64,000 bases of DNA. It comes from Erodium maritimum. Lineage: Eukaryota; Streptophyta; Magnoliopsida; Geraniales; Geraniaceae. The stretch spans positions 132,711,203-132,775,202 of the forward strand of contig OY997588.1 in assembly GCA_963921825.1 (NCBI GenBank), written 5' to 3'. Positions within the stretch are counted from its first letter, which is position 1; each line of letters starts with the position of its first letter. Positions 7,389 through 60,381 of the stretch are shown here, one piece after another. The position numbers and the translations under genes were made by a program. The notes under the pieces were generated by a model. That model searched no databases. It was not told the DNA's origin and saw nothing but the letters and a program-made list of their open reading frames with translations.

Positions 7389-7499
7389 ATATACCCCCCT
7401 TAAAAGAATTTCGTCCTAGAAATTTAAAACAGGAGTACCTCAAAGTTCGAACATGTTGGGATACTTCGCGCGAACCTCATACTCGCGCTCCCAAGTCGA

Positions 7500-10158: not shown

Positions 10159-10176
10159 TCTCGGCAGCTCTCTACT

Positions 10177-12061: not shown

Positions 12062-12064
12062 GGA

Positions 12065-13136: not shown

Positions 13137-13151
13137 ACTCTGATACCAAAT

Positions 13152-23100: not shown

Positions 23101-23171
23101 ATATTCCTCAAGGGGACACTGTAGTGGTCAAATATCAACCTTTCATTTAATGTAAGAGGTCTTAAGTTTGA

Positions 23172-23765: not shown

Positions 23766-23859
23766 AATTGACCTGTTGTCATTACTAAGAGAATATCATT
23801 CGATAAGATACAAGCGAGTGTATCAGGGGGAATAAATCTTGACCACGTAGGGACAGACA

Positions 23860-28170: not shown

Positions 28171-28675
28171 GGCACATTCTATTTTTTTTTCTCTATTTCT
28201 TTCTTGCAAAATAGTACATATGATAAAACAAGTGTTCAATGTTGATAAAATCATCAAATAATTTTTTTAAACTCAGCCCAAAATAGGTTGGGCAAGTTGT
28301 CGTCGGTCTATTATTTCTTCGCTCGAGGATGTTAAACTCAAGTTCAATCCTAGATATGAAGTCGTTGACATATATTTTTCCGGATGATGAGAATGGGGTG
28401 GGGAATCTCATCCCCCGTGGGGTTGGAACCCATTCCTTGACATCATGAATGAAGTCGATATATGGACAAGAAGGGTTGAACTTGTTTTATTTTCGGGAGT
28501 AATTTCGTGTAAGAAAATATGTAACCGTATACGTACGAATGAATAAGGGAAACGAATCATATATGTCACACAACATTGCAAAGCATGAGAAAGCGGAGTA
28601 AGTATATATAAACGAATGTCAATATATTTATATATAGTTGTTGGCAACTGATGAGTACGTAGAGACAATATATTT

Positions 28676-30111
28676 TCAGACCCACACGGGCACCCATTCC
28701 TTGCCATCAATGAAGTCAATGGATAGGAAGGGTTCAGCCTCTTCTTTGGTGAGTATTTTCGTCCACGGAGAGCGCTTACTGGTGTCGGCTCCTGGCCCAA
28801 GGCAGTCATACTCCGCATGGAATAGATCTCTGAATATATATGTACACGTGTTTTGACAGAAATGGATAATTAAGGTGTAATAAAAAGTGAAAGATACACA
28901 CATAAGTGAGATATATAGATAGAGAGGACTTACTTGGTGTCCCCGTTGTAGCTCCAGTTAGTCCATCCTTCGGCGGATATAGAATTGGAAAAGTGTGTTT
29001 GGGCAAAAATGACCCTAGAAAAGGCTCCCTTGGCCCTCCCCAAATGCTCGTCAGGCCCAACTCCAGACACCGAGCCCTTGATGAAGACGAAACCGCTGTT
29101 CTCCGTGGCGGTTTCCCTATTCTGAGCAGTGATGGAGCCCAAGATGCTTATCCTCTTGTCCGCAATGAGAAATATCTCACAGTTCTGCATCATCCAAATA
29201 TATATATATATATATGACGACGATGATGAAAACAACATGTATGTATATATACTAGCTAGGTACAAATAATAACAATATCTACTAACATGGTAAATGGATC
29301 TGGCGCGACCGAAGATGAAGTCAATACAACCCTGGATGTAGCAAGTTTCATAGTAATGCCTCCCTTTGTTATCAAAGAGAGTGTTATGCTCACTAGTGAA
29401 TGCACATTGGTAGAATGAACACTTGTCCCCGCTTACTACTGCTGCCACCGATTGATTTTGTGAACTATAAGCTAACCCGGGGGGAGCCTCATTCTGCATA
29501 ATTAAAAAGTTATATATATGATCTCATTACTATTACGAAATATATATATGAGGTGAATCAGGTGCGAACCCAGATTTAGTTTATTGAAATAGAAAATATA
29601 ATAAAAAGATGAAACCTTGAAGCTAACACCCCATGCAATGAAGTTGTTAGATTGGACTATGAACGTGGCAGAATCAACATTTTTAGCTGCAGTTTGGGAT
29701 GAAGTTATGATAGTCCTCCACATTCCGTTTCCCCTCAAAAATATGAAAGGTTTACCGGGTGGTATGGTCACCCTTTCTCTGCCATGCGTATTCATTCATA
29801 GTAAACTGATTAGTGTACATACTAGATGGGGAAAAGAAACCTATATATAAACACTTTATTTACTTGTAAACGCCTTCTTTGAGATTGACGATGATCCACT
29901 CAGCGTTACCATCGGGGATAGAGTCGATGGCAGCTTGGACGGATGTGAATTCTCCATCTTTGCCTTCGGCGTCAACCTTAATGGTGCGGTTCGCACCGAT
30001 CTTTTGGGTCAACACCTGAGAATCCACTATTACATTGCTGGAAGCAACACGGGAGACCACCACAAACGTTGCTAGGAAAAGGATTGCGGATCTACACATT
30101 GTCGGAGACAT
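28676..30111 (-). CDS. Pectinesterase-family protein, left inverted copy, 5 exons
   Basis: Mirror copy of the gene at 58,675-60,110. Exons on the minus strand, in transcription order: 30111-29864, 29778-29616, 29493-29287, 29184-28934, 28829-28676. They encode 340 residues, identical to the right copy in every translated stretch compared. The copy has a full coding region, a native-looking start, and about 2.6 kb of matching upstream host sequence before a copied copia LTR, so it could be expressed. It sits wholly in the derived left arm of the inverted duplication and is transcribed away from the spacer. Domain content and the active-site changes are described under the right copy. Because the arms look identical, short RNA or DNA reads cannot tell the two genes apart. 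Confidence 0.88.
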
Positions 30112-31810
30112 GATTGATTAGTGTCTCTTATTTCTAAGAGACTTGTTCTCGTACTACAGCCTTGTTTATTCTCACATAAATATGCTTCTCAAAGTTATTT
30201 TCGGCATGCTCTTCTTCCTATCTCCTTGCCATTCCAATCAATTCATCTCTACTTTATATTTGGTTCTTTTCAATATGATACAAGGTTTACCCTATTTAAC
30301 GGTGTTTCTTTGGTTCAATTTTTCTGCCTCCTCATCCGATTCGGATTTACAGGTATATAAATTTTACCTCCCTTTCAATTTTAAAATTCGTTAAACCATC
30401 TTTCCATATTGTTGTAATTTAATTTCTCGTTTACATCTGTTTTGGGTCAAAAGAATTTTTGTTAACATAAATGATATTTGTCTGTCATGCATGTAAAACG
30501 ATTTAGATGACTAAAGGTACGACAATTGATGATATTTTAACAAGGAATTAAAATTTTCAAACTCCAAAGAACCCGTGATTACCATATGTAATGGTATACC
30601 ATGGTCTATTGGTATTTTAACACATTTCTTAAATTCATGATGTCGAACAAGACTAGGGCTTACAAAAATTATTGGGAGAGCAAGAGATCAGTCGAACTAA
30701 CCGGCATCTGGGGTACCGGATTATTGGCCTGTAAGGTAATGTATGGCGTAAACCTTTTTTTTTGAAACGGGCAATAAGGTAATGTATTAACGCCAATCAA
30801 AGGTTACATAGTAGGACCAAAAGCCCTGGGCTCTAGAATATTGTCCGAGCCGCCCATTGGTGACCCGACTCTCTTGGACCCGTAGAACTAGTCTACTTTT
30901 GATCGTAGACACAAACTGAAGAATTCCTTTTACCACACTTTCAACTAAATAAAACACATTACGAAAGAACCAACTAAAAATTCTAATACGGTAGTTCGGA
31001 GAGGAATAAAACCAACTAAGAACCCAAAGACTCCAGTTCCGTAATAAAACGAAGCATAAATAAAAATAAACTTGCACCGGTTCCTTGACATTCTCGAGAC
31101 GGCCCAACACCGACAAACGCTCATAGCTTTCGTAATGGGCCGTCCTCGTACTGTCGACCCGTCTTTAATAGTCCAGCTAACCCGACCTTGGTTGCGGTAG
31201 AAGCAGGCCCCATCCTATCGTCCCTCCCCCGGATTCCTAATCCACCGACTGTACTGCTCCAAAACCTTCTCCAACCTTCTCGTGCAGGTGTTTGGTTGGT
31301 AAAGCTTTACCAAAATCAAACCTCGACAAATCGAGACCATATGCTGTGGAGATCGATATCGGAATAGTCTTGAAAGCTCGCTATAGTCTCTTAGACTCAA
31401 CATTAAGTCTCTTAGACTCGGGGTTAGGAACAATGAGGAGGGGGGAAACACTAGTGGCATGCGAGGGCTGGTGGGTGCGAGCGGAGTAGAGGGCGTCGGG
31501 AGCAGAGCCGTCCCGAAGTCTTACAAGCGCCTGGCTGTCCGGCGAACTATTGTGGAAACGTCAACAACAAAGCATGTCATATCCAACAACAACCTGCAGG
31601 AGGAAGTCGGAGTCGCGCAGCCATAAAATCATCATCTAGAAAACAAGGGTGAGGAGGAGGATTCTTCGACGGAGATCAACGTAAGACCGGCCAGAGGAGA
31701 GACCCCACCGGAAGCTCTCATATATTTTGTTGAGAGTTTTCATGAAAGAGCTTTTCAACCTTTTGATCCTGTTTTAGTGTTAACCATCATCATCATGAAA
31801 ATTCTCATAA

Positions 31811-32121
31811 GAGCATCTCCAATGGTCTGCCATGATTAATGTCAAGGAGCTATGGTAGGAGGTGTTTTTTGGCATTCTCTCTCCTCCCTACCATGGCTTG
31901 ATGCCAAGGCCTCTCCAATGGTCTGTCATGACTAGTGTCAGGAGCCATGGTTTGTAGTTGTTTTTGGAATAAAATGAGCTTCTATCTCCTCTAAAGTAGC
32001 TCCTACCACGACGACACGTCGTTGCAGGATTCTGCAACGACTCCTTGACACGCCACCCGTGACACGACTTGTCGTGGCAGCGTCTGCAACGACCTGGCTG
32101 CCACGACCGTTGGAGCTGCTC
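31811..32121. mobile_element. PIF/Harbinger-type MITE (left-arm copy)
   Basis: 311 bp with terminal inverted repeats starting gagcatctccaatggtc and ending with gaccgttggagctgctc. TAA is duplicated at 31,808-31,810 and 32,122-32,124, the Harbinger signature. The related foldback arm at about 36,570-36,590 lacks it and shows the empty site. Inside is a 10-bp hairpin stem (gtcgttgcag / ctgcaacgac) and a diverged direct repeat of its own left end. Confidence 0.8.
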
Positions 32122-32773
32122 TAAGAAGAATGAGTAATGATCTTGTTTCCTTTCAATCTTTTTTTTCTATTTTGCTGTCAAGTTACGATTTTTATTGCAA
32201 GATTTTTTTACGCTTTATACTTAAGAAGGCTGTAAAATATGGTTCTGTCAAGGATGGTTTTCTATTAATAAGGGCCATGTACAGGAGGGTGCCATTGCTG
32301 GTGATCGAAGCACTGTCAAGGCAAAGATGGTGGTTTTCGATCTCGTAGCCACCAATGAGTCTGGGAAATATGGCACTAAGAAGGAGGTCTCATCCATTTC
32401 TACTTCTTCAAGGGAGGTGAAAGGTGACTTGATGCGATCTCTGGCAAGTCTTAGAGCGAATTGACTGAGAAGGAGATCTGAATAAGGCCTTTAGCGGTGG
32501 AATGTGGAACTGAGTTGTTCCTTCACAATCTCCCATATGGTACAACATCAGAGCGAGTTCGGAATACAGTAGGGTCCTTTGGGGAGATTATCTCCATCTC
32601 CATCTCTAAGCGACCAAATTGAGGAGGGTACTTTTTCGGTTTTGTCAAGGTCAAAACCAAGGAGTCTGCTAAGATGGTAATCTCCTCTCTCAACGGTTTA
32701 AATTACAATGGTTAAGTGCTTTTCATTTGTATTGCTCGTTTGGTAAATGCAGGTCTCGGTCTGTGAAACCAAG

Positions 32774-33194
32774 TGTTGGGTTATTTTATAATCCAACGTG
32801 TGAGCTTACAAATTGGACAAGTATATTTGAGGTCAATAATTCATATTGGGCTTGGGAAGCCCAATCTAAAACATTATAATGAGTATGGGCTTTGTAATGT
32901 GTGATACCCAATATAAATCTGAAATAGAGTAATGGGCTTTATTCAGATTATATATATAAAGACATGTTAGGGTTTGGTCCCCAAGATTAATCAACCGTCT
33001 TTCTTTCTCCTCCATCCCCATCTATTGAGTGAGAGCACATCAAGAGCATAAGGGATTAATTTGTTGAAGGCCAAACCGATCTTGTTCTCATATTCGACAT
33101 GGCATCAGGTACGCTTTCTGTGTTGTTTTATGTTTAAATCTCGATTGTTTGACTAAGCGTTGGATTCTTAAGGGATTCGATTAGGGTTCTAACA
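32774..33194 (+). repeat. Copied copia 5' LTR in the left arm
   Basis: Mirror of 55,592-56,012, followed by the same primer-binding site and part of the copia leader. It looks like an LTR with a leader but no body. It arrived by segmental duplication, not by its own insertion: the arm copy includes the host flank and stops inside the leader. Confidence 0.88.
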
Positions 33195-33525
33195 AGTGGT
33201 ATCTGAGCCATGCTTTAGTCGAATTATTAGGGTTTAATTGAGTATCTTTACTGTGAAAATTTCCGTGTATATATGTACGTGGTTTCACTACTGTTGCATG
33301 GCCTTTTTTTTACTTTCGGCTGAAACTAAAAAGTTTTTTTTTAAGTGTTGCCGAGCTTGTTTCTGTGGCGTCGCGGTTATTTTTGATGAACTACGGTACT
33401 GGTTAAGGCAACCTTGTTGTTGATTGAGTTATGATTGCTTGATGTTGATTTTAAATATATGTATATATTTAATTTAAGAATTCACTTTCTTGGTTCACAT
33501 GACTGTACGTGTGTGCCTTGTTTTT

Positions 33526-34122
33526 TTTTTGATCGACAAAGCAAATTTAGATTAAAACCTCTTTCGAGATGAAAGAGGAGGTAGTTACACAAAAAACTCG
33601 TTTAAGAAGGCAAGTATACCAACTTAATTAGGGCTATACAAGGATGACTTATCTTTCTTGCATTCCAAGTAACCTAAGGCAAGATGAATTTTGAACTATC
33701 TTGCATTCCAAGTAACCTAAGGCAAGATGAATTTGAACTAATCCAAGAAAATAGACCAATAAACCAAGCCTAATGAGAAAGTTTGACCATTTGGACGTCC
33801 AACAAAACTTCTAATTATTCCAAGTAAGGCTATACCAATTGATCAATGAGGATGGAGCCTGTCAAGGATGAATTGCAGCAGTCGAAATGATCAGGTAAAA
33901 TGAGAACTGAAGGAGGTCAATATTTATCTTGCTAGCAGCCTCATCTTCAAAGATTGAATCACCAAATCACCAAATAAAACTCAAGTCTGCAGCAAGATCT
34001 TCTTATGTAAATCCCCAAATAAAGCACAAGCAGCTGGTTCTTCTTCTTTGAATCTTTGAATCAATTATGTCTTCAGCTCTTTATCTTTGAATTTCAAGAG
34101 TGTTTAGCCACTTCTAAAGGAT
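33526..34122 (-). mobile_element. Truncated copy of the copia-leader retroposon (left arm)
   Basis: Mirror of 54,664-55,260. It begins with the poly-T complement near 33,521-33,530 and is cut at the arm limit, so its own 5' end and second target duplication are missing here. Confidence 0.8.
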
Positions 34123-34202
34123 ATTTGCACCACTTCGGGAGCAGAGCCGTCCCGAAGTCTTACAATATCATAAAGCCTAGAGAAGTAGGATATTTGCACC
34201 AC
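34118..34202. repeat. Inner junction of left arm: flanking direct repeat with 31-bp templated filler
   Basis: The 16-mer aggatatttgcaccac occurs at 34,118-34,133 and 34,187-34,202. Its first five bases coincide with the arm end at 34,122, which is microhomology. Between the copies, 34,135-34,165 is an exact 31-bp copy of 31,496-31,526 inside the arm (reverse complement at 57,260-57,290), followed by 21 bases of unplaced sequence. Confidence 0.85.
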
Positions 34203-34340
34203 AAAAAGCATTATATGAGATGAGAAGTCCCAGTAATTTAAATTATAAGTCTATCGGGTGATATGATAATTGAAAAAATACAGTAGCAAATTATCAATTC
34301 CGCAAGAGAACTTCCATCACATTCAAGAATACAAACTAAA

Positions 34341-36239
34341 GCCTGATTTGTTTTTTTTTTAATGGCAGAAAGAGGTTTCAGAGAAACCCTTACTCTTCCC
34401 CTCACTGTTGCCTCCCTTACTCTTCGTTACCGTGGTTTCCTTAATACCGACGACACCATGCCTTCCGACCATGGATGTCGCCGGTGGTTCCACCTTTCTC
34501 CTTTTTCTTCCTATCTTTATTTTACCTCCTCTTCTTCCTTTATGCTTCTCGTGACTTATTCCTCTTGCTATCTTTCGTCCTTGTTTACTGTCCAGTGTGT
34601 AACACCGTCTTTGGCCAGCGTTGTGGCCGGTTTGGCACACCAGATCTGTAGGCTCTTTAGAGTTGGACGCCGAACTCGGCTCTGGAGTGGGATCACAACG
34701 TTTCAAAGGGTCGTCGGGTTTCTCTATTGATTCGTCGGAGATCGTTTTGGCTCTAGATCTGTTAGTTTTACGGGCAGAGTTCGTCTTCTTGGGGAGACTT
34801 AGGGGATTCAGGGTTTTGGCTGGCAATGGGGTCTTCTCTTTGGCCGTGTTTCCTCTTCCTGATCCGGAGCAACTCGGACCTTTGTGTCTCTTCGTGGCTC
34901 AGGAATTATGGTTATAGTTTTTACTTTTCACCTCCGACCAGCGTGAATAGACTTTCTTGATTTTCCCGATCATAGATTGTTGCTGTCTTGTGGGTGTTTG
35001 GTCTTTTTGGATTCGTGGTTTCCTCCGGCATACCTGACAGGTCTTCTCACCATTCAACTTTGTAGGGTTTCGTTTGCTCGTCGGTTGTACCTGATCGTTC
35101 CTCGTAGTTGGATCATTACTGCTTTGTTTTCAAGTTGCTACCTCTTTTTTCCTATCTCTCCATTTCGTGAGTTTGGTTCCGACCAGGGAAGTCGTGGTTC
35201 CGGCTAGTGTTGTCGTGTTTGGTTGTGGGCTTTCATTGTCTGGGTGTTTAGAAGTGGAATTCAAGCCTCGGTGCAGCTCTGGTGGGTTACAGGTCGGTTC
35301 GCGGATAAATTTGGTCAAGTTGTGCTCCCTATCATCTCATCCTCTACAGGTACTTATGCCCTTCCCCTGCTTGGTTTAGAACATTTTCATTCCTGAGTCT
35401 TTTTCGGAGAAGATTTAGGTTGAACTTTTCGTAACTCTCCCTTTTGTATCGCCTGGAGTGTTGTCCCGCAATGGGTTAAATTGGTTTTTTGAGTTAATTG
35501 AGAAGTCCTTGGCGGGTTGAGTAAATGTTTTTCCTTGTAGAGGTAGTTGGTTATCGTTTACTGGTTTCCTTGTTAGGTTGTCTCGGCTGAATTCGATTTT
35601 GAGCCTCTATTACTCATTCCTCTAACGACAATTTTAGGATTTTAAGATATGACTCCGCTTTTGGGTCGTCTGGTGGTGTTGGCCTCGGTTGGACTCTACT
35701 CGTGAGAGTTGAGCAGTGCTCGGTGGGGCTTTCTAGACTTTGATGTGGTGGTGATTGCTCTTGGCGTTTTGACGTGGATGTTTGAGTTTTTGGTGAGCAT
35801 AGTAGCGCTACTTGGCCTTTTGGTGTTTCGGTGTTGGTTTGGCGCTCTTTTTGTGTTGCAAAGGTTCATGGTGTTTATTTTAGGTTTTTAGACCTTCGGT
35901 TTTTCAGGGCTTAATGGTTGTAAAATCGGGCTAATTAGACCTTCTTATTTAGTTTGGGGGGGGGGGGGGGGTCATGCTCTCCCTTGTTTCTTTTTATGGT
36001 TGCTTTTTTTTGTGAGTATTCGTGCTTCAAGGTTGCAAAATCTGGGTAGTAGGAGCTGTTAGATCTGCTATTTGGTTTGGTTGCTTCACATCTGTAAAAT
36101 CGGGGTATAAGACTGTTAGACCCATCCTTGATTTGTATGTACGTCTGTTCGGTTTGTATGTTTGGTCTGAGGGTTTTACCGTTATCCTCGTCTTTTCATT
36201 AAAGACTGGGACCTTATAATAATAATTTGTTGATAAAAA
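34341..36239. mobile_element. LINE-like/retroposon sequence, unresolved
   Basis: The left edge is a poly-T run (about 34,350) followed by aatggcagaaagagg, the complement of a LINE-type tail on the minus strand, with a Lys/Arg-rich frame reading up to that tail (34,359-34,826). The right edge ends plus-strand sequence of LINE-tail type (ttcattaaagactggg... then gataaaaaaaa at about 36,239). Two opposed retroposon pieces are one reading. No target duplication found. A G run lies at about 35,957-35,974. Confidence 0.35.
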
Positions 36240-37253
36240 AAAGTCTCATACAGGGAGAACATCTATAAACTCAAATAAAAGTAACGCATGTAGCAATTTG
36301 TGTGAAATGCACTCTACTTCTTACTATGCGTGACCAATCAATCGAATATTTTGTATTGTTTTCCACAAGGCTTCAAGAAGTTATTGACGTTGATGTTCAT
36401 TTTTCTCTTTGTGACGTCCTTGAACTTGATTTAATGGTGTCATGTTCCAAAAAAAATCCAAAGCAAAGAACACATGAGGGAGTGAGTAACAATAAGGCTA
36501 CATTTTGTTGAGAGAGTTTCCATCAGAGAGCTTTTCAACCTTTTGTTCCTGTTTTGCTGTCAACCATCATCATCATGAAAATTCCAAGATGAAGAATGAG
36601 TGATGATCCTGTTTCCTTTTCAACCTTTTGTTCATTTTGCTGTCAAGTTATGATTCTTATTGTAAGATCGTTTTATGCTCTATATCTAAGAACGCTTTCA
36701 AGGATGGTTCTGTCAAGAAGGGTCGTGTACAGGTGGGTGCCACTACTGGTGATCAATGCACTGTCAAGGCAGAAACAATGGTTTCGATCTAATAGACGAC
36801 GGTGAGCCTGGGAAATTTGGCAGCAAGAAGGAGGTCTCAGTCCTTTATGTTTTTTCTAGGGAGGTGAAAGGTTACGTTGATGCAATCTTTGGAATGGTTG
36901 GGAACAAATTAACTGAGAAGGAGATCAGAATAGGGCATTTGGTAGTGGAACATGGAACATAGTTATTCCTTCATAATCTCCCTATGGTACAACGTCGGAG
37001 TGAGTTCAAAATGCATTAGGGTCCTCTAGGGAATATTTTCTCCGTCTCTGTCCCTATGTGACCAAACCGACGAGGGTACTTTTTCGGATTTGTCAGGTTC
37101 AAAACCAAGGAGTTTGCTAAGATGGTAATCGCCTCTCTCAACGGTTTCAAATACAATGGTTACTTGCTTTAGTTTCTATTGCTGGTTTTGATACACGCAG
37201 GTCTCGGTCTGTGAAACCGAGCTCCTATGTTCCACATACAATGAAACAGAGCA

Positions 37254-37718
37254 ATGTTTGAAGACGACCCGTCTTCATTTTTGGGAGTGGGTCCGATTCA
37301 GAATCCCAATCTACAAGTCGAAACTTCTCGTTTTTTAACATCATGCCAAAGGGATAAGACTACCGTTCCAATGATGGTACTCGTGTCGGACTCATCGGTT
37401 TTGGGTAAACAAGAGGATAGAGCAACGACGCTTTCTACGGGGGTTTCAGGAGTTCTGGAGTTTGAATAAACGAATTTTGAGGCATGTCAGATCAGTGAAC
37501 GCGATTTGGGCGAGATTTCTAACGACGATTTCGCGCTTCCGTTCCTTGGGAAAGACATATCGAGTGCCTGTTTTCGGTCCCGTACGAAGTCGTTTGGGCT
37601 TGAGGCCCATATGGACATGGTGGATCTAGTTCATTTGGCAGATGATTTTCCATGTGGTCATCGTCATGTGGCAATAGATTGTACGAGTATAGAATTTTCG
37701 ACCTGTAGGGGATTCTAA
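37254..37718 (+). other. Central reading frame of the foldback-like element
   Basis: About 155 codons in one register with one stop (37,467), lying in and around the centre of the palindrome. The translation is acidic and Ser/Leu-rich, with no domain I recognise. It could be the downstream part of the RRM-like protein encoded in the left arm. Unknown function; may be chance. Confidence 0.25.
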
Positions 37719-37807
37719 ATCGGACCCACTCCTACCAATAAAGACGGCTTCAAACGCAGTTCACCAAACTTGCTCTGTTTCATTGTATGTGGAACATAAG
37801 AACTTGG

Positions 37808-38229
37808 TGTTAGAACCCTAATCGAATCCCTTAAGAATCCAACACTTAGTCAAACAATCGAGATTTAAACATAAAACAACACATAAAGCGTACCTGATTC
37901 CATGTCGAATATGAGAACAAGATCGGTTTGGCCTTCCACAGATTAATCCCTTATGCTCTTGATGTGCTCTCACTAAATAGATGAGGATGGAGGATAAAGA
38001 AAGACGGTTGATTAATCTTGGGGACCAAACCCTATTATGTCTTTATATATAGAATCTGAATAAAGTCCATTACTCTAATTCAGATTTATATTGGGTATTC
38101 ACACATTACAAAACTCATACTCATTATAATGTTTTAAATTAGGCTTCCCAAGCTCAATACGAGTTATTGACCCCAAATATACTTGTCCAATTTGTAAGCC
38201 CACACGTTGGATTATAAAATAACCCAACA
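37808..38229 (-). repeat. Copia 3' LTR
   Basis: 422 bp, starting tgttagaacc and ending aacccaaca on the plus strand. It differs from the 5' LTR at about 22 positions by eye. It adjoins the duplicated host cttgg on its left. Confidence 0.88.
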
Positions 38230-38606
38230 ATCTCCCACTTGGGCTACAAATCGATTCCTAACGACAATTATATTTGAAAACTGTATGTGCGCACAAAATG
38301 GTCAATATTCTTAAAACATTCCCCCTTAGTCAATCTGGTCCATCTCTTGTACCAACATGAGACCAAAGCGGCCTTTGCTACAACAATTGTAACTAGACCC
38401 ATCAATGATCACCATGCCAAATACATTCAATGACATAGATCAAGTATGGATGTGTGATTGAAAATTTCATGCAATGAGATATCATTCATGCCTATTTCCA
38501 CTTGGTCCTTAATGCTTAAGTGAGATCAATATTTAGTTTTTCAAACGTTATCCTAAACCGCAATTTAAAAACAAAACATTCAGAGCAACAATGATAATAA
38601 TATCAT

Positions 38607-41350: not shown

Positions 41351-41482
41351 ATCTACCCCCCTTAAAAGAATTTCGTCCTCGAAATTTAAAGACAATGGCG
41401 TACCTCAGAGGTTGAACAGGTGAGGATACTTCTCGCGGATCTCCTCCTCGCGCTCCCACGTGGATCCAGATCCTTGGTGACC

Positions 41483-43630: not shown

Positions 43631-43639
43631 TTCTCCAGA

Positions 43640-46254: not shown

Positions 46255-46379
46255 GTCTCTTATCCGCCTGCACGGATAACGCACATGTTCAGTACTTAGT
46301 TCAACAACGGTTCTCACACGTTACAAGGACGAACACACGCGCCACACTAGTCACCAACAGATACGCCCCTCACACTAGA

Positions 46380-46423
<44 letters not shown>

Positions 46424-47637: not shown

Positions 47638-47653
47638 GGCTCTGATACCAAAT

Positions 47654-50364
47654 TGTCACGCCCCAAATCCGGTTCTTGCCCGGACCGGAGGCATGACTAG
47701 TAATGGAAGATTAAAAAGATGGTAAATCAACAATTAGTTCTTGAAAATCTCCAATAATAAAATGAATCCGCAAAACTCAGTTCAAAACACAAATAACCCT
47801 CCAGGGGTGTAATAATAATCCTCCACAAGGTTTTTTCAAAACAGTAAAGTGATAAGAACGAAGTCTCTACAATGCACCCACACCGAGAAGCTCCCGAGCT
47901 TCTACTCCTCAATCAAGCCTGTAAACACAATAGTAAATCCATAGGGGTGAGCTTGCGCTCAGTAGAGAAAGCACATAACAAGGTGGACCTTAAACTCAAT
48001 AAAGTCAACAGCAAGTCAACAAGATAGATCTTAACAAACCCAAGTAACAGGTAACCAAACCAATGCCGTGGCACATGAAGTCTCCACCCTCCGATCCACA
48101 TATGATGTGTCCTCTCGGATTTTCCCTCCAATCCAGAGGAGACGCATATCATTGAGACTATCGGAAACACCCTTCAGGGCACATATCGTCGGAAGTTTTA
48201 GAAACGTCTCCGAAGGATTTTATGTCCTCGGGAACCAAGGTACTACTCCCATAGGAAGCGTACACTTGGGTAATTCGATAATAAACAGTTCATAATTGAA
48301 TACCGCACTCAAAACGAAATACGAAATAATCCAATCCCAACAACCACCAAGTCATTATCACACCTAACTCACACATCACCAATTCACCACAACACACAGT
48401 ACACGAATCACATAACCACAACACATCAATCACACAATTGCAACTTACCGTTCACTTACCAGTCTCGAACCAACGGGGCATCGATCACCTGATTGCACCG
48501 CTCGGTACAACCAGTCATACTCGATGCTCCAAGCAACCATTTAAGTAAATCAAGTAATCATTCGAATACAATCAACGATCAAGTACGAGTTTATTCCACC
48601 AATCATAAAAACCTTCAAAATAGCAATCACACAAGTAATTCAACTAGTTCCGTTAGACTCTTTAGCCTATCCACTAAGCAACCAACAACCAAGCATGTGA
48701 TCCTAACACGCAACTAATCCGAGGGCTTTGCCAAGGCTCCTCTACCAGACAAACAATTCCCAAGTATTGAAAGCGAATTATACTAGTGATTGGCATCCTA
48801 ATCGTTCACAACTAGACACTTCCGGTTATTAGTAATTGAAAGACAACTATGCTAGTTATTCGCATCCTATAGGCATTTCTAGGACCTTTCCAATTTTATT
48901 AGTCTAGCATTCATACTAAACATCATAAAGGCGGGGTTAAGGCTTTCCCTACCTCGAGGTCTTCCTCTCAACACTCTGACGATAAGCCCGGTGGTCACCA
49001 CTTCGTTCTTCACTCGGGTCCCGGCGTGATAAAAGCTCCTCTAACTCGTGTCCACGTTCTTCCTTCTTTCCTAGCTTGGTTCCAAGGTTTTGAACCACCA
49101 AAAGACCACAAATTAGTTTCCTCAACCAAGTGTTCTTCTCCTCAAAACACACAACAATGTTCAGAAATGGATCAAGGTTTGAGGAGGAAATGTGGGAATC
49201 AAATTGAGCTAAAAGGAAGGGTTTTGGGCTCTGGGGATCTGATCCGGAATGCCATACGGACTGTGTGGCTTGCCGTGCCGGAACATGGCACGGACCGTGT
49301 CACAGGTCGGCCCGGAATCTAGCGCGGAATGCGTCACAGACCGGCCCGGAGAGCGACACGGACCGTATCAGGTCCCGTGCCGGATTCCCGCCCGTCCCGT
49401 GCCGTGTGTCGTGCCGGTACCAGGCCCGTTCCGTGCCGGGTGCCGTGCCGGTACCTGGCCCGGTCCGGGTCGGATTCCGTATCAGACCTGACCAGCTCCT
49501 TCCCCTTTCTTCCCCAACTCGAATTTCACGAAAAACTCAACACAAACTCAATTTCTAAGCTCTCCTAGCTCCAAAATAATCAACCAAAGATACTCAGCAA
49601 CTACACCCTCAATGGGTTCATCAAACTTCATCCAAAACTCAATCCAACAACCTACTTCACTACTTCTTCTCCAAGCAATCAATCAAATAAGCAAGTTCTT
49701 TAACTTTTAAGCCAAAACCCACAAAACCCAGAGATTGGAAGTGGAAGAAATGGAGAGTTGAGAGCATCCTTACCTCTAGATAGTTGAGATGGAGAAGATG
49801 AAGTGAAAATGAAGGCAAAAGGACCAAGAACAAGCTCCAAAATCCAAGCTTTCTTCTCTATCTTCTTCCTCAAGAAAGTGAGCTCCTCCTCTCCTCTCTA
49901 CTAGTGATTTTCGGCTGCAACAAGAGTAAATGGGCTGAAATGTTGCTCCCTTTCCTTTAAATGACCTAAAATGTCAATTTACTCAAAAGCCCTTAAGGTC
50001 TTATCCCTTTAAAGGCAACCTAGGAGGGTATGAGGGTCATTTGAATCCCCTACTCTCATCCTCCAAGCCAAGCATGACAAGTGTCATGTGAGGTCACTCC
50101 AACTCAATAATTTTCCAACTTTCCGATAATTATCGACAATTAACCGATAGTAAGCCCGAGTTTGACCGACAGTTGACTTTAACAATATTACAGTCAAACT
50201 GAAGGAAACGACCCAACTAAGCTAACCGTGCTAATGGCTAAGCTTTTTGGACCCCGGAAAGGTCCCGACTGACTTTCCGAGTCATCGGTTGACTTTTCCG
50301 GCCGAAGTCAAACTTAGCTAGGATTCACCGGTTCTACTGGGATCGACCGGGGGCGGGTCTTACA
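47654..50364 (-). repeat. 5' LTR of the young gypsy element
   Basis: 2,711 bp. Differences from the other LTR are few, and many are C/T-type transitions. The GC-rich array lies at about 49,252-49,490. Confidence 0.92.
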
Positions 50365-50441
50365 ATCATCAACTTTATTATGCAGAATACTTAACAAGTA
50401 TAGTGTCATTCCGAATAGCAAACATAGGCAACAAACTCCCA

Positions 50442-53400
50442 CTAAAACCGCATATTGTCAATTAAGACAACACCCATATGAGCAGTATGCTCATGAAACA
50501 CTTTAGGTGTCAAGCCCTTAGTTATTGGGTCCGCTAGCATGTAGTTTGTTCCTATATGCTTAATAGACACTATCCTGCTCTGAACTCTTTCTTTAACAAC
50601 TAGAAACTTGATGCCAATGTGTTTAGACTTTGACAAACTTCTGTTGTTATTCGAATACATGACTGCCGAAAGATTGTCATAATAGACCCTTAGAGGTCTT
50701 TCGATTCCATCCAGAACTCGCAGCCCGGTGACAAAATTTTGCAGCCATATAGCCAGATTGGTTACCTCATAACAAGTTATGAATTCTGCTGCCATGGTGG
50801 AAGAAGCTATAAGTGTCTTCTTAGCACTTCTATGAGATATAATTCCTCCTGACAACAGAAAAACATAACCAGAAGTGGATCTCCTAATATCTTAGCAACC
50901 TGCACCATCAAAGTCACAATACCTAATGATCTCCAAATTTTCTGACTTCCGATATGTGAGCATGTATTCCTTTGTTCTCTGTAAGTACCTCATGACCCGT
51001 TTAGCTACTTTCTAATGATCCATACTAGGGTCACTTAAGTATCTGCCGAACATGCTGACTATGTATGCCAAATCTGGACGGGTACATACCTGAGCATAGA
51101 TAAGACTCCCAACAACTGAAGCATATGGGATGTTAAGCATTTCCTTTCTTTCTAATTCATTCTTGGGGTACTATTTGAGACTAAACTTGTCTCCTTTAGC
51201 AACGGGAGTATCTCCAAGTACACAATCTTTCATGCCAAACCTGGCAAGGACCCTTTCGATATAGTTCGTTTGTGATAACCCAAGAATGCCACGAGAGTGA
51301 TCTCGGTGTATCTTGATTCCTGACACAAAAGTTGCATCACCAAGATCCTTCTTTTGAAAATATTTTGTTAAAAAATCTCTTGGTTTCGCGCAACAAACCT
51401 ATATCGCTACTTGCCAACAAAATATCGTCGACATACAACACTAGGAAGATGAGTTTACTCCCACTGAACTTATGATATACAAAATTATCCATTACATTGA
51501 CCTCAAAGCCATACGAGGTAATGATAGTATGAAACTTGTGATACCATTTACGGGAAGCCTGCTTGAGACTGTAGATGGACCTTTGAGTTCACAACCCATA
51601 GACTTTGGGTCACCTGATACAAAGTTTTCTGGTTGTTCCATATATATGGTTTCCTCAATTTCACCATTGAGAAAAGTCGTCTTAACATCCATCTGATGTA
51701 GCTCTAAATCCAAATGAGCTACAAGTGCCATTATTGTCCTAAAAGAATCTTTCGATGAGACCGGAGAGAAAGTTTCTTTATAGTCAATACATTCCTTTTG
51801 AGTAAAACCCTTTGCAACCAGACGCGCTTTATACCTCTCAACATTGCCCTTCGAATCCCGCTTGGTTTTAAATATCCATTTGCAACCAAAGGGCTTCGTA
51901 CCTTGAGGAAACTTGACGAGTTTCCAAACGCCATTATCATGTATAGATTTTATCTCATCATCCATAGCATAGATCTACTTTTGACAGTTAACACTTTTTT
52001 GACCTATTGGAAGTTGATTGGATTATCTTCCATTGTCCTTGTGTCAAACTCGTGTTCCTGGAGGAACACAATGTAATCACTAGAGATTACACTCCTCCTG
52101 TCTCTAGTGGATCGCCTAAGTGGCACTTCTTCTTGAGGTAGTTGTGGTTGCTCTTCAAGAACAACCTCTTGAACTTGACCAGGGAGTGGTAGAGGAGAAT
52201 CCTTATTGTTGTCTTTTGTTGTGTCTTGAACAATGTCAACAAGTTGAACATTGTCAATAGCAACATCCGGTAGAGGAACGAATCCCTCTTCATATACAAC
52301 ACTCCTAATACTCTCTCCCCCCTCAAACACAACATCCTCAAGAAATCTCGCATTTCCCGTTTCGAAAAAGGACTTAGTTGAGGGATCATAAAACTTAGAA
52401 TCCCTCGACCGTTCAGGATACCCAACAAAGTAGCAACTAACTGTTATGGAATCTAGATTATAAGGCCTCGCCTCAGCTGGACAACCTCAAATGTGCAAGT
52501 GCCTAATACTAGGCCTTTTTCATGTCCACAATTCATAAGGGGTTTTAGCTACCGCTTTACTAGGTACTCTGTTCAGTATGTATACTGCAGTCTTAATTGC
52601 CTCTCCCCAGAGTGGTTCCGGTAAAGAAGAATGACTAATCATACTTCTCACCATGTCCTTAAGAGTTTTGTTTCGCCTCTCTGCGCCACCATTCATGCTA
52701 GGTTTCCCTTGCACGGTGTATTGCGGGACGATTCTGCACTCCTCTAGGAATTTGGAAAAGGGCAAGTATAAGTGTGAACTTCCCACTGCAGTTACCTTAT
52801 CCTTAATCCTCTTTCTTTTGTTTCCCATTGAGGTCATTGCAACATGAGCACGTTCAGTCTTTTCACGCTTCAACCTATCATCTTCTTGCACAAAATGATA
52901 AATGAGCTCATTAAGAGTTCATTTGTCCTAATAAGTATTATAGCTAACTATAAATTGACCATAGTGTGCAGGAAGTGGGATTAGGACCAAATGCACAAGC
53001 AAGTCATCAGACAGATCAAGCTTGAGCCCTTTAAGTTTTGAAGCGATGTTAGACATCTCCATAATGTACTTCCTTATGTTTCCTTTTCCTTCATACCTTA
53101 TCTGGACAAGGTCAGGTTAAAGCTTACTTGTCTCAACCTTTTCTTTCTTTGCAAAACTACTTTCAATTTCATGAAGGAAACTCCTTAGAGTTACCTCATT
53201 TGGCATACCGCCCCTAAATGCTTTTGGAACATTGCGTTGGACCATCATCAGACTTAGGCGATTCGAACGCTCCCACTTCTCAGATTTCACCTTATGCTAA
53301 GTGGAACTTTTATCCGTAAGAGAAGAAGGTTGTTCAAACCTTATCGCATAGTCTAGATCCACACAACCGAGAACTAACAGAGTGTTCTCTTTCCGGATCC

Positions 53401-53460
53401 TAAAGTTTGTGCTGTTGAGCACAAGAACTGAATTCATGTTGGTAGTGATATTAGTAGCAG
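50442..53460 (-). pseudogene. Copia gag-integrase-RT-RNase H remnant
   Basis: Fossil coding region of the copia element, in the copia order. RNase H lies near 50.4-50.9 kb, reverse transcriptase near 51.5-52.0 kb, the integrase C-terminal side near 52.5-52.9 kb, and gag-like sequence about 53.0-53.4 kb, all on the minus strand. Recognition rests on family motifs in translation. It is clearly non-functional, with numerous breaks. Confidence 0.75.
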
Positions 53461-53799
53461 ATGTAGTAACTATCAATACAGAACAAATAAATACATAAGC
53501 TCAAACATTGAAAATCATGTTACAACACATTAAGAATAAGCAAGCAATTCTCATGTGATACACAATTTTCAATCAACCGAAGTGATGGGCCCATACAACC
53601 AAGATACCTAGCACAACATTAATGTCTATCTTTGGATAGAATCATTAATTCGTAAGTGGTACTCTTGCACGCAGAAATCAAGTGCTGACGATAAATTCGG
53701 TTAAATAACATCCTTCCTTTGGGCCGGTATGTTATCCACATGAAAAATTTACAATCGTCACACACCATTCCCACACGTGTATTCATTGTTCGACCGCAT

Positions 53800-54350
53800 G
53801 AACAATGAACACACACATCCCGTTATTTTAAAATAAATCAACCTACACACAAGAGGTTACTTTGGCAACTTTATGCGTCGATCTACTCATTTAAAGTAAG
53901 GGACAAAATAATATTAGTAAGTGCCCAAAACTGAAATTTTGATATCAATATCGAAAGTGAAATTATTTCAAACACTTACTGATCAGATATATGAATCAAA
54001 TATACAGTATCAATATGTATCAATAAACATAAATACATACATATTAACAGTTCAATATATTTCACAAGTGGTTACTGTAATTATCATTCACATATATCAC
54101 CACACGTATATTCATTGTTCGGCCAATCAATGATCTTCATTTGGGCCGAGCATTGACCGCATATACAATGAACACACACATCCCATTATTTTAAAATAAA
54201 CAAACCTACACACAAGATGTTACTTTGGCAACTTATGCGTTGATCTATTTATTTAAAATAGGGGACAAAAAATGAATAAGTATGTGTCTAAATCTAAAAT
54301 TTTGATATTAAATATCAAAAGCTTAAAATTTATTTCAAGCACCTACTTTA
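53800..54350. repeat. Diverged tandem duplication in the copia leader
   Basis: About 185 bases at 53,801-53,985 recur at about 54,163-54,350, offset by about 362 bases. Both open with a stretch containing caatgaacacacacatccc and contain similar AT-rich sequence. The intervening part also repeats pieces of the unit. No coding content is seen. Confidence 0.6.
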
Positions 54351-54562
54351 ATTCACAAATATAGATTTCATGAATCAACAATGTATATAAAAAACAATAC
54401 ATATAACCAGCATACATCAATACATATATATATATAACCATATACCGTCAACGTAAAAGTTACTTTACCAACAATATATATACATCAATCATGCATATTT
54501 ATAAAAACATGAATAAGTTCATGTAAAAATAAATCTATACCCTTAAAAACAAGGCACACACC

Positions 54563-55260
54563 CTTTTAAGTGTGGGTAGATCCTTGTTAGGTTGAGTGTT
54601 TTGTTTTGCAGGTTCTTTGCTGGTTCTTGGTCATCCGGATGCTTAAGGTGTTGTCACTCTCCAATCCTTTAGAAGTGGCTAAACACTCTTGAAATTCAAA
54701 GATAAAGAGCTGAAGACATAATTGATTCAAAGATTCAAAGAAGAAGAACCAGCTGCTTGTGCTTTATTTGGGGATTTACATAAGAAGATCTTGCTGCAGA
54801 CTTGAGTTTTATTTGGTGATTTGGTGATTCAATCTTTGAAGATGAGGCTGCTAGCAAGATAAATATTGACCTCCTTCAGTTCTCATTTTACCTGATCATT
54901 TCGACTGCTGCAATTCATCCTTGACAGGCTCCATCCTCATTGATCAATTGGTATAGCCTTACTTGGAATAATTAGAAGTTTTGTTGGACGTCCAAATGGT
55001 CAAACTTTCTCATTAGGCTTGGTTTATTGGTCTATTTTCTTGGATTAGTTCAAATTCATCTTGCCTTAGGTTACTTGGAATGCAAGATAGTTCAAAATTC
55101 ATCTTGCCTTAGGTTACTTGGAATGCAAGAAAGATAAGTCATCCTTGTATAGCCCTAATTAAGTTGGTATACTTGCCTTCTTAAACGAGTTTTTTGTGTA
55201 ACTACCTCCTCTTTCATCTCGAAAGAGGTTTTAATCTAAATTTGCTTTGTCGATCAAAAA
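54563..55260 (+). mobile_element. Poly-A retroposon inserted in the copia leader
   Basis: About 700 bp ending in ten A residues and flanked by a long target duplication (up to 17 bp, core acaaggcacacac, at 54,546-54,562 and 55,261-55,277). It has the marks of LINE-machinery retroposition. It contains two copies of a roughly 40-base unit around 55,048-55,132. No protein was recognised, so it may be a 5'-truncated LINE tail or a retroposed transcript. Confidence 0.75.
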
Positions 55261-55591
55261 AAAAACAAGGCACACACGTACAGTCATGTGAACCAAGAAA
55301 GTGAATTCTTAAATTAAATATATACATATATTTAAAATCAACATCAAGCAATCATAACTCAATCAACAACAAGGTTGCCTTAACCAGTACCGTAGTTCAT
55401 CAAAAATAACCGCGACGCCACAGAAACAAGCTCGGCAACACTTAAAAAAAAACTTTTTAGTTTCAGCCGAAAGTAAAAAAAAGGCCATGCAACAGTAGTG
55501 AAACCACGTACATATATACACGGAAATTTTCACAGTAAAGATACTCAATTAAACCCTAATAATTCGACTAAAGCATGGCTCAGATACCACT

Positions 55592-56012
55592 TGTTAGAAC
55601 CCTAATCGAATCCCTTAAGAATCCAACGCTTAGTCAAACAATCGAGATTTAAACATAAAACAACACAGAAAGCGTACCTGATGCCATGTCGAATATGAGA
55701 ACAAGATCGGTTTGGCCTTCAACAAATTAATCCCTTATGCTCTTGATGTGCTCTCACTCAATAGATGGGGATGGAGGAGAAAGAAAGACGGTTGATTAAT
55801 CTTGGGGACCAAACCCTAACATGTCTTTATATATATAATCTGAATAAAGCCCATTACTCTATTTCAGATTTATATTGGGTATCACACATTACAAAGCCCA
55901 TACTCATTATAATGTTTTAGATTGGGCTTCCCAAGCCCAATATGAATTATTGACCTCAAATATACTTGTCCAATTTGTAAGCTCACACGTTGGATTATAA
56001 AATAACCCAACA
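55592..56012 (-). repeat. Copia 5' LTR
   Basis: 421 bp adjoining the primer-binding site. It lies wholly inside the right duplication arm, and therefore has an identical copy at 32,774-33,194. Confidence 0.88.
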
Positions 56013-56664
56013 CTTGGTTTCACAGACCGAGACCTGCATTTACCAAACGAGCAATACAAATGAAAAGCACTTAACCATTGTAATTTAAACCGTTGAGAGA
56101 GGAGATTACCATCTTAGCAGACTCCTTGGTTTTGACCTTGACAAAACCGAAAAAGTACCCTCCTCAATTTGGTCGCTTAGAGATGGAGATGGAGATAATC
56201 TCCCCAAAGGACCCTACTGTATTCCGAACTCGCTCTGATGTTGTACCATATGGGAGATTGTGAAGGAACAACTCAGTTCCACATTCCACCGCTAAAGGCC
56301 TTATTCAGATCTCCTTCTCAGTCAATTCGCTCTAAGACTTGCCAGAGATCGCATCAAGTCACCTTTCACCTCCCTTGAAGAAGTAGAAATGGATGAGACC
56401 TCCTTCTTAGTGCCATATTTCCCAGACTCATTGGTGGCTACGAGATCGAAAACCACCATCTTTGCCTTGACAGTGCTTCGATCACCAGCAATGGCACCCT
56501 CCTGTACATGGCCCTTATTAATAGAAAACCATCCTTGACAGAACCATATTTTACAGCCTTCTTAAGTATAAAGCGTAAAAAAATCTTGCAATAAAAATCG
56601 TAACTTGACAGCAAAATAGAAAAAAAAGATTGAAAGGAAACAAGATCATTACTCATTCTTCTTA

Positions 56665-56975
56665 GAGCAGCTCCAACGGTCGTGGCAGCCAGGTCGTTGC
56701 AGACGCTGCCACGACAAGTCGTGTCACGGGTGGCGTGTCAAGGAGTCGTTGCAGAATCCTGCAACGACGTGTCGTCGTGGTAGGAGCTACTTTAGAGGAG
56801 ATAGAAGCTCATTTTATTCCAAAAACAACTACAAACCATGGCTCCTGACACTAGTCATGACAGACCATTGGAGAGGCCTTGGCATCAAGCCATGGTAGGG
56901 AGGAGAGAGAATGCCAAAAAACACCTCCTACCATAGCTCCTTGACATTAATCATGGCAGACCATTGGAGATGCTC
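56665..56975. mobile_element. PIF/Harbinger-type MITE (right-arm copy)
   Basis: Mirror copy of 31,811-32,121, with the same terminal repeats and TTA on the plus strand at both flanks. The element inserted before the arm duplication, since both arms carry it at the same place. Confidence 0.8.
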
Positions 56976-58674
56976 TTATGAGAATTTTCATGATGATGAT
57001 GGTTAACACTAAAACAGGATCAAAAGGTTGAAAAGCTCTTTCATGAAAACTCTCAACAAAATATATGAGAGCTTCCGGTGGGGTCTCTCCTCTGGCCGGT
57101 CTTACGTTGATCTCCGTCGAAGAATCCTCCTCCTCACCCTTGTTTTCTAGATGATGATTTTATGGCTGCGCGACTCCGACTTCCTCCTGCAGGTTGTTGT
57201 TGGATATGACATGCTTTGTTGTTGACGTTTCCACAATAGTTCGCCGGACAGCCAGGCGCTTGTAAGACTTCGGGACGGCTCTGCTCCCGACGCCCTCTAC
57301 TCCGCTCGCACCCACCAGCCCTCGCATGCCACTAGTGTTTCCCCCCTCCTCATTGTTCCTAACCCCGAGTCTAAGAGACTTAATGTTGAGTCTAAGAGAC
57401 TATAGCGAGCTTTCAAGACTATTCCGATATCGATCTCCACAGCATATGGTCTCGATTTGTCGAGGTTTGATTTTGGTAAAGCTTTACCAACCAAACACCT
57501 GCACGAGAAGGTTGGAGAAGGTTTTGGAGCAGTACAGTCGGTGGATTAGGAATCCGGGGGAGGGACGATAGGATGGGGCCTGCTTCTACCGCAACCAAGG
57601 TCGGGTTAGCTGGACTATTAAAGACGGGTCGACAGTACGAGGACGGCCCATTACGAAAGCTATGAGCGTTTGTCGGTGTTGGGCCGTCTCGAGAATGTCA
57701 AGGAACCGGTGCAAGTTTATTTTTATTTATGCTTCGTTTTATTACGGAACTGGAGTCTTTGGGTTCTTAGTTGGTTTTATTCCTCTCCGAACTACCGTAT
57801 TAGAATTTTTAGTTGGTTCTTTCGTAATGTGTTTTATTTAGTTGAAAGTGTGGTAAAAGGAATTCTTCAGTTTGTGTCTACGATCAAAAGTAGACTAGTT
57901 CTACGGGTCCAAGAGAGTCGGGTCACCAATGGGCGGCTCGGACAATATTCTAGAGCCCAGGGCTTTTGGTCCTACTATGTAACCTTTGATTGGCGTTAAT
58001 ACATTACCTTATTGCCCGTTTCAAAAAAAAAGGTTTACGCCATACATTACCTTACAGGCCAATAATCCGGTACCCCAGATGCCGGTTAGTTCGACTGATC
58101 TCTTGCTCTCCCAATAATTTTTGTAAGCCCTAGTCTTGTTCGACATCATGAATTTAAGAAATGTGTTAAAATACCAATAGACCATGGTATACCATTACAT
58201 ATGGTAATCACGGGTTCTTTGGAGTTTGAAAATTTTAATTCCTTGTTAAAATATCATCAATTGTCGTACCTTTAGTCATCTAAATCGTTTTACATGCATG
58301 ACAGACAAATATCATTTATGTTAACAAAAATTCTTTTGACCCAAAACAGATGTAAACGAGAAATTAAATTACAACAATATGGAAAGATGGTTTAACGAAT
58401 TTTAAAATTGAAAGGGAGGTAAAATTTATATACCTGTAAATCCGAATCGGATGAGGAGGCAGAAAAATTGAACCAAAGAAACACCGTTAAATAGGGTAAA
58501 CCTTGTATCATATTGAAAAGAACCAAATATAAAGTAGAGATGAATTGATTGGAATGGCAAGGAGATAGGAAGAAGAGCATGCCGAAAATAACTTTGAGAA
58601 GCATATTTATGTGAGAATAAACAAGGCTGTAGTACGAGAACAAGTCTCTTAGAAATAAGAGACACTAATCAATC

Positions 58675-60110
58675 ATGTCTCCGACAATGTGTAGATCCGC
58701 AATCCTTTTCCTAGCAACGTTTGTGGTGGTCTCCCGTGTTGCTTCCAGCAATGTAATAGTGGATTCTCAGGTGTTGACCCAAAAGATCGGTGCGAACCGC
58801 ACCATTAAGGTTGACGCCGAAGGCAAAGATGGAGAATTCACATCCGTCCAAGCTGCCATCGACTCTATCCCCGATGGTAACGCTGAGTGGATCATCGTCA
58901 ATCTCAAAGAAGGCGTTTACAAGTAAATAAAGTGTTTATATATAGGTTTCTTTTCCCCATCTAGTATGTACACTAATCAGTTTACTATGAATGAATACGC
59001 ATGGCAGAGAAAGGGTGACCATACCACCCGGTAAACCTTTCATATTTTTGAGGGGAAACGGAATGTGGAGGACTATCATAACTTCATCCCAAACTGCAGC
59101 TAAAAATGTTGATTCTGCCACGTTCATAGTCCAATCTAACAACTTCATTGCATGGGGTGTTAGCTTCAAGGTTTCATCTTTTTATTATATTTTCTATTTC
59201 AATAAACTAAATCTGGGTTCGCACCTGATTCACCTCATATATATATTTCGTAATAGTAATGAGATCATATATATAACTTTTTAATTATGCAGAATGAGGC
59301 TCCCCCCGGGTTAGCTTATAGTTCACAAAATCAATCGGTGGCAGCAGTAGTAAGCGGGGACAAGTGTTCATTCTACCAATGTGCATTCACTAGTGAGCAT
59401 AACACTCTCTTTGATAACAAAGGGAGGCATTACTATGAAACTTGCTACATCCAGGGTTGTATTGACTTCATCTTCGGTCGCGCCAGATCCATTTACCATG
59501 TTAGTAGATATTGTTATTATTTGTACCTAGCTAGTATATATACATACATGTTGTTTTCATCATCGTCGTCATATATATATATATATATTTGGATGATGCA
59601 GAACTGTGAGATATTTCTCATTGCGGACAAGAGGATAAGCATCTTGGGCTCCATCACTGCTCAGAATAGGGAAACCGCCACGGAGAACAGCGGTTTCGTC
59701 TTCATCAAGGGCTCGGTGTCTGGAGTTGGGCCTGACGAGCATTTGGGGAGGGCCAAGGGAGCCTTTTCTAGGGTCATTTTTGCCCAAACACACTTTTCCA
59801 ATTCTATATCCGCCGAAGGATGGACTAACTGGAGCTACAACGGGGACACCAAGTAAGTCCTCTCTATCTATATATCTCACTTATGTGTGTATCTTTCACT
59901 TTTTATTACACCTTAATTATCCATTTCTGTCAAAACACGTGTACATATATATTCAGAGATCTATTCCATGCGGAGTATGACTGCCTTGGGCCAGGAGCCG
60001 ACACCAGTAAGCGCTCTCCGTGGACGAAAATACTCACCAAAGAAGAGGCTGAACCCTTCCTATCCATTGACTTCATTGATGGCAAGGAATGGGTGCCCGT
60101 GTGGGTCTGA
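58675..60110 (+). CDS. Pectinesterase-family protein, right copy, 5 exons, altered active site
   Basis: Exons 58675-58922, 59008-59170, 59293-59499, 59602-59852, 59957-60110 (GT-AG) give 1,023 nt, 340 residues plus stop. Residues 1-24 form a hydrophobic signal peptide, so the product should enter the cell wall; there is no N-terminal inhibitor (PRO) domain. The right-handed beta-helix signatures are recognisable: Q151, DFIFG with D195 (the family nucleophile), and LGR with R256. Family enzymes remove methyl groups from pectin. Here the usual Gln-Asp of the QDTL motif, oxyanion Gln and acid/base Asp, is H173-N174, and the Trp expected two residues after R256 is K258. Loss of the acid/base Asp suggests little or no catalysis (inference). 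Length fits PRO-less pectinesterases. A partial extra copy of the last exon follows at about 60,313-60,381. Confidence 0.9.
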
Positions 60111-60312
60111 AAATATATTGTCTCTACGTACTCATCAGTTGCCAACAACTATATATAAATATATTGACATTCGTTTATATATACTTACTCCGCTTTCTCA
60201 TGCTTTGCAATGTTGTGTGACATATATGATTCGTTTCCCTTATTCATTCGTACGTATACGGTTACATATTTTCTTACACGAAATTACTCCCGAAAATAAA
60301 ACAAGTTCAACC

Positions 60313-60381
60313 CTTCTTGTCCATATATCGACTTCATTCATGATGTCAAGGAATGGGTTCCAGTACAGGTCTGAAAATTGC
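60313..60381 (+). pseudogene. Partial duplicate of the pectinesterase last-exon end
   Basis: About 70 bases closely resemble the end of pectinesterase exon 5: the same order of Asp-Phe-Ile, Lys-Glu-Trp-Val-Pro and a stop, with several changes and a small insertion. It lies about 200 bases past the real stop. The inverted-duplication boundary (60,362) falls inside it, so only part is present in the left arm, at 28,424-28,473. Confidence 0.6.

Follow-up and report, generated by a model that had tools for sequence, protein, structure and literature searches.

A perfect 5.7-kb inverted duplication of a pectinesterase gene in Erodium maritimum, with a distinguishable donor and a templated junction, probably made by template-switching repair

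When the same gene stands twice in a short stretch of DNA, in opposite orientations and without a single difference, which of the two is the original, how was the other one made, and is it present in the plant at all? Herein we address this for a pectinesterase gene that lies in both arms of an inverted pair in a 64-kb stretch of Erodium maritimum (assembly GCA_963921825.1, contig OY997588.1, positions 132,711,203–132,775,202 of the forward strand), hereafter the window, and all results on the origin of the pair come from sequence comparison within this one assembled window. In our best reading the pair is quite probably a real and very recent inverted duplication, made by template-switching repair of the synthesis-dependent strand annealing (SDSA) or microhomology-mediated break-induced replication (MMBIR) type. 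Events of this kind are already known; the present one is unusually well preserved, with a clean polarity and a readable junction. The two arms are:

28,424–34,122, minus strand: left arm, the derived copy in reverse orientation, with 0/5,699 mismatches; it cuts a copia retrotransposon and a pectinesterase 3' remnant.
54,664–60,362, plus strand: right arm, the donor (ancestral) locus; the copia, with its target-site duplication (TSD), crosses the inner end and the pectinesterase remnant crosses the outer end.

The arms are reverse complements over 5,699 aligned bases, with 0 mismatches and 0 indels in a base-by-base comparison. A sequence-only reading of this DNA had proposed that they pair at a constant coordinate sum of 88,786 without an indel, that homopolymers and repeats are identical between them and that they are set 20.5 kb apart, and the alignment bore this out. 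Each arm contains five homopolymers that are eight or more bases long, as well as three runs of at least five dinucleotide units, which are identical in both copies since there are no differences at all, and the spacer that separates them measures 20,541 bp. Identity ends at a single base, the next base differing at both ends, and the first 100 bp beyond the arms agree at chance level (30/100 identical on the outer and 27/100 on the inner side). Local alignment of the 300-bp flanks gave scores that were reached by 464/500 (outer) and 354/500 (inner) shuffles. A plain haplotig duplicate predicts matching flanks and was rejected, as the flanks of the arms are unrelated. The absence of differences over 5,699 bp, the eight simple-sequence runs included, would also be expected if the left copy were an assembly or library artefact, produced by chimeric reads or a mis-join and absent from the plant; a fold-back chimera, however, would place the arms side by side and not 20,541 bp apart.

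Which arm is the original can be read from the elements that meet the arm ends:

37,808–56,012, minus strand: copia long terminal repeat (LTR) retrotransposon, with the 5' LTR at 55,592–56,012 (right arm), the 3' LTR at 37,808–38,229, and RVT_2 and Retrotran_gag_2 domains.
32,774–34,122, plus strand: truncated copia 5' piece (LTR and leader) without a 3' LTR, in the left arm; the first 1.35 kb of the copia.
60,278–60,378, plus strand: last-exon remnant of a pectinesterase paralogue, crossing the outer arm end at 60,362, with 13/16 bases matching past it.

The left arm was copied from the right arm, because the copia and the pectinesterase remnant continue across the ends of the right arm, whereas the left arm cuts both, and the two ends thus agree. 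On the inner side, the right arm belongs to a continuous copia running through 54,664, while the left arm stops after the first 1.35 kb of that element. At the outer end, the remnant matches 13 of the first 16 bases past 60,362 but only 2/16 past the left arm (binomial p ~4 × 10−6, somewhat flattered by a length that was picked after seeing the alignment, at the point where the remnant alignment ends). These relationships further point to the spacer having kept its orientation since the duplication, because a flip would have shifted the body of the copia to the left arm.

The sequence-only reading had placed the copia inside the arm, which is wrong: only the 5' LTR and leader lie there, and the 3' LTR falls in the spacer. 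The element is bounded by a 5-bp TSD, CTTGG (37,803–37,807 and 56,013–56,017), and its flanks (188 + 203 bp), once joined, are colinear across the joint with a paralogous repeat at 37,035–37,329, from which we take the copia boundaries to be right. Its interior matched the Pfam families Retrotran_gag_2 (E = 5.4 × 10−7) and RVT_2 (E = 7.4 × 10−34), and an integrase match, rve_3 at 52,523–52,918, fell below the curated cut-off. The copia is inserted into the minus member of an older inverted repeat pair (36,591–37,329 on the plus strand versus 56,661–56,013 and 37,802–37,600 on the minus strand), whose members are ~80% alike and look LINE-like (long interspersed nuclear element) by eye. The copia in turn contains a second retrotransposon:

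38,607–50,364, minus strand: gypsy LTR retrotransposon nested in the copia, 11.8 kb, with ATCAT on both sides.

Short direct repeats occur within this gypsy at 46,944–47,200.

These insertions put the duplication into a sequence of events in which the copia is oldest, the gypsy next and the duplication last. The gypsy followed the copia because it is nested inside it, and the duplication came after both because the arms differ at 0/5,699 bases, compared with 29/2,712 aligned bases between the gypsy LTRs (Fisher p = 5 × 10−15). The copia LTRs differ at 22/421 bases, in line with the divergence of about 5% given earlier, and the proposal that the duplication is much younger than the copia likewise holds. 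If no gene conversion is assumed, the arms diverge by at most 5.3 × 10−4 (95% upper bound), or ~1/20 of the gypsy LTR divergence; with substitution rates of 0.7–1.3 × 10−8 per site per year, the duplication would then be younger than about 20,000–38,000 years. The very young age is observed solely as zero divergence, which on its own cannot tell youth from an older inverted duplication held identical by gene conversion between its arms, and inverted arms are known conversion substrates. Conversion would, however, be expected to leave a diverged homologous edge, and there is none at either end.

The inner junction of the left arm, where the copied block meets its new flank, is composed of the following pieces:

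34,118–34,122, plus strand: AGGAT, a 5-bp microhomology where the copied block ends on its inner side, also present at 34,187–34,191 (exact-match scan).
34,123–34,133, plus strand: filler 1, ATTTGCACCAC, a copy of 34,192–34,202, 69 bp downstream.
34,134, plus strand: extra T between the templated pieces, explicable by fold-back copying that would extend a 6-bp hairpin stem to 9 bp.
34,135–34,165, plus strand: filler 2, a 31-bp exact copy of arm positions 31,496–31,526 (57,260–57,290, minus strand, in the right arm); the match stops at both sides.

The filler therefore amounts to 43 bp (11 bp, one T and 31 bp) before the flank begins, and the microhomology and filler 1 together form a 16-bp exact match (34,118–34,133 = 34,187–34,202). 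Outside the arms, 4,746/52,512 31-mers recur exactly, and at the resolution of 500-bp bins nearly all of these coincide with LTR pairs or dispersed repeats; the filler 31-mer is the sole recurring one of its bin, and one other bin (63,000) likewise holds a single one. The stretch 34,123–34,190 folds better than all but 1/200 shuffles; the source of the 31-mer (31,480–31,545) folds no better than shuffles, of which 79/200 fold as well. The bottom strand of the 31-bp piece ends in self-foldable sequence, and the hairpin stem is 9 bp in the filler versus 6 bp in the source, with the extension exactly at the switch. This suggests that synthesis proceeded leftward and briefly folded back, although just one base of the fold-back is not otherwise explained. 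A hairpin where the left arm meets its outer flank (28,372–28,432) was also considered and dropped, as 86/200 shuffles fold as well.

The junction also bears on the two explanations raised above. An artefact would need two separate joins into unrelated flank, one of them with filler from two places, and an assembler would not be expected to make filler from two nearby places; we consider it unlikely that the left copy arose in this way. As to conversion between the arms, the filler still matches both of its sources exactly, and the filler and the source at 34,187–34,202 lie outside the arms, beyond the reach of conversion; an older, homogenized pair appears less probable still.

The surroundings are rich in transposable elements, which raises the question of whether one of them carried the block, be it a Pack-MULE (Pack-Mutator-like element), a CACTA element, a Helitron or a retrocopy. 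With or without the filler, however, the arm ends have no TSD of at least 2 bp, no terminal inverted repeat (TIR) and no Helitron TC...CTRR ends, and nowhere within 30 bp of them is there a stretch of eight A or T. Gene capture by a class II element or a Helitron was rejected, as there is neither a TIR with a TSD nor a pair of TC...CTRR ends. A retrocopy was rejected as well, since all four introns are kept and there is neither an 8-A/T run within 30 bp nor a TSD. Carriage by a transposable element is thus, in our judgement, extremely improbable.

The recent copy is a dispersed inverted duplication with filler, in which the donor lies elsewhere, the copy lacks transposon ends and a TSD, and microhomology and templated filler sit at the inner junction. 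Because microhomology and serial templated filler mark repair synthesis with template switching, we favor such repair as the origin of the pair; the break, the direction of synthesis and the enzymes involved are what we infer from these marks. The left site would have suffered a double-strand break or a collapsed replication fork, somewhere between 28,423 and 34,166. With synthesis of the bottom strand from right to left, the broken right-hand end would have copied 31 nt within the right-arm locus (57,260–57,290), after which the nascent strand may have turned back on itself to copy one to three bases. Re-annealing immediately behind the point where it had started, it would next have copied 11–16 nt (34,202–34,187), whereupon a 5-nt microhomology, ATCCT, may have let the strand re-enter the right locus at 54,664. 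From there 5.7 kb would have been copied, through the copia leader, the LTR and the whole pectinesterase gene up to 60,362, before joining to the left-hand end.

Several observations weigh against the template-switching account or against parts of it. A 16-bp direct repeat alone is not very rare: of the 52,485 16-mers that lie outside the arms, 90 have a direct repeat no more than 100 bp away, spread over 15 places. The proposed fold-back accounts for a single base, which could be untemplated. In the exact-match scan, the outer join at 28,423/28,424 had no templated match beyond 11–12-mers. The polarity at the outer end is affected too: when the outer flanks were compared with the 3' end of the pectinesterase in a shuffle test without anchoring, the two arms were poorly separated (right score 22, reached by 8/2,000 shuffles; left score 19, reached by 17/2,000). 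Because this test is weak and the anchored length was chosen post hoc, the inner end outweighs the outer end in assigning donor and copy.

What the copied block contains was resolved by gene modeling, and the two gene copies are:

28,676–30,111, minus strand: pectinesterase gene, left copy, with exons 28,676–28,829, 28,934–29,184, 29,287–29,493, 29,616–29,778 and 29,864–30,111 (gene model, PF01095).
58,675–60,110, plus strand: pectinesterase gene, donor copy, with exons 58,675–58,922, 59,008–59,170, 59,293–59,499, 59,602–59,852 and 59,957–60,110 (gene model, PF01095).

The model is complete, with 5 exons, four GT-AG introns and 340 aa, and the protein matches the Pfam profile PF01095 over residues 48–332, spanning the catalytic domain (E = 4.9 × 10−60), which substantiates the earlier statement that the arm carries a whole pectinesterase gene. 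In plus-strand order, the left arm consists of the pectinesterase last-exon remnant, the complete pectinesterase gene (minus strand), the upstream sequence with pieces of an older repeat (LINE-like by eye only), and the copia 5' LTR and leader; ~4 kb of upstream sequence (30,112–34,122) thus accompanies the intact left gene copy.

Catalytic positions were counted on an alignment to the carrot pectinesterase 1gq8, for which we take Gln113, Gln135, Asp136, Asp157 and Arg225 to be the catalytic residues. Gln113, Asp157 and Arg225 are retained in the Erodium protein, while Gln135 is replaced by His and Asp136 by Asn (EHNTL for YQDSL). An active pectin methylesterase would be expected to have all five of these residues, and two of the five are substituted; both copies are therefore intact genes for what is probably a pseudoenzyme, without esterase activity. 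As both copies are identical, the substitutions would most simply be older than the duplication. The functional effect of the event is probably that of a plain extra gene copy with ~4 kb of upstream sequence. Silencing of the gene by hairpin RNA from the pair was considered and is not supported, as transcription of the two genes is divergent and one transcript would need to cross the 20.5-kb spacer.

Ten open reading frames (ORFs) of the window were compared with Pfam. Three of the ten had no family there (50,445–50,891, 25,660–25,881 and 34,362–34,898), and the RVT_1 match of the ORF at 27,438–27,683 was below the curated cut-off. An ORF at 16,419–16,967 (plus strand) has a PAS domain (PAS_9, E = 1.7 × 10−8), and together with neighboring ORFs at 15,630–17,697 it resembles a plant PAS/Raf-type kinase gene. 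A second gypsy-like element occupies 4,465–14,377 and is related to the nested gypsy (78% over 2.7 kb); its segments 4,465–5,694 and 13,152–14,377 are 94% alike. Another inverted pair (61,159–61,846 versus 63,257–63,960) is 84% alike, and parts of it also match the element at 4,465–14,377.

The locus is a clean natural case, in that a single sequence displays the donor, the copy, the order of events and the scars of repair. If reads confirm the duplication, a single act of patch repair copied an entire gene, introns included, along with ~4 kb of its upstream sequence, and the fresh inverted pair would allow inversion, conversion or silencing between the arms to be watched. More tentatively, and as a joint proposal that we hold to be possible rather than probable, the pair may be a new structural allele that still segregates and is perhaps confined to the plant sequenced or to its lineage. 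Such an allele would double the dose of a pectinesterase-like pseudoenzyme gene together with ~4 kb of upstream sequence, and its junction may log the order and direction of template switches in a plant base by base (31-nt copy, fold-back, 16-nt copy, 5.7-kb copy).

How does this locus compare with known systems? A search among open-licence papers for a pectinesterase gene in an inverted duplication turned up none on such a case, as judged by titles and the openings of abstracts. Pace et al. (2009, PMC2671141) describe repair-mediated duplications with SDSA capture of nearby DNA, microhomology of 2–9 nt and filler of 1–68 nt, including one duplicated exon in opposite orientation. The Erodium pair resembles these in having its donor elsewhere on the chromosome, an insertion at another site, microhomology and filler, but the human cases are mostly short (distant ones have a mean of 302 bp and a maximum of 3,424 bp), whereas 5,699 bp with a whole gene were copied here. 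Plant patch repair, in which gene-bearing filler is copied into a break by SDSA (PMC3445842, citing Wicker et al. 2010), is similar in that gene-bearing DNA is copied into a break; here, however, the donor, the copy and the junction patches all lie within one 64-kb window, the copy is undiverged, and no tie of the break to a transposable-element insertion is seen. The MMBIR and fork stalling and template switching (FoSTeS) model (Hastings et al. 2009, PMC2621351), with microhomology of 2–5 bp and inverted segments, shares the short microhomology, the serial template switches and the inverted duplicated segment, although it is drawn from human copy-number variants and there is no evidence of a fork in our case. 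Fold-back templated insertions at yeast breaks, argued by the authors to include events as small as 2 nt (PMC11724301), likewise involve very short inverted copying beside a break via a hairpin; at the Erodium junction at most 3 bases lengthen the stem, one of which is not otherwise explained. Finally, non-homologous filler at the breakpoints of barley indels has been ascribed to SDSA (38 insertions/deletions, 12.7%; PMC3706897), and the Erodium junction has the same SDSA-type filler at a plant breakpoint, although the barley events are indels between cultivars and the event described here is a gene-sized inverted duplication.

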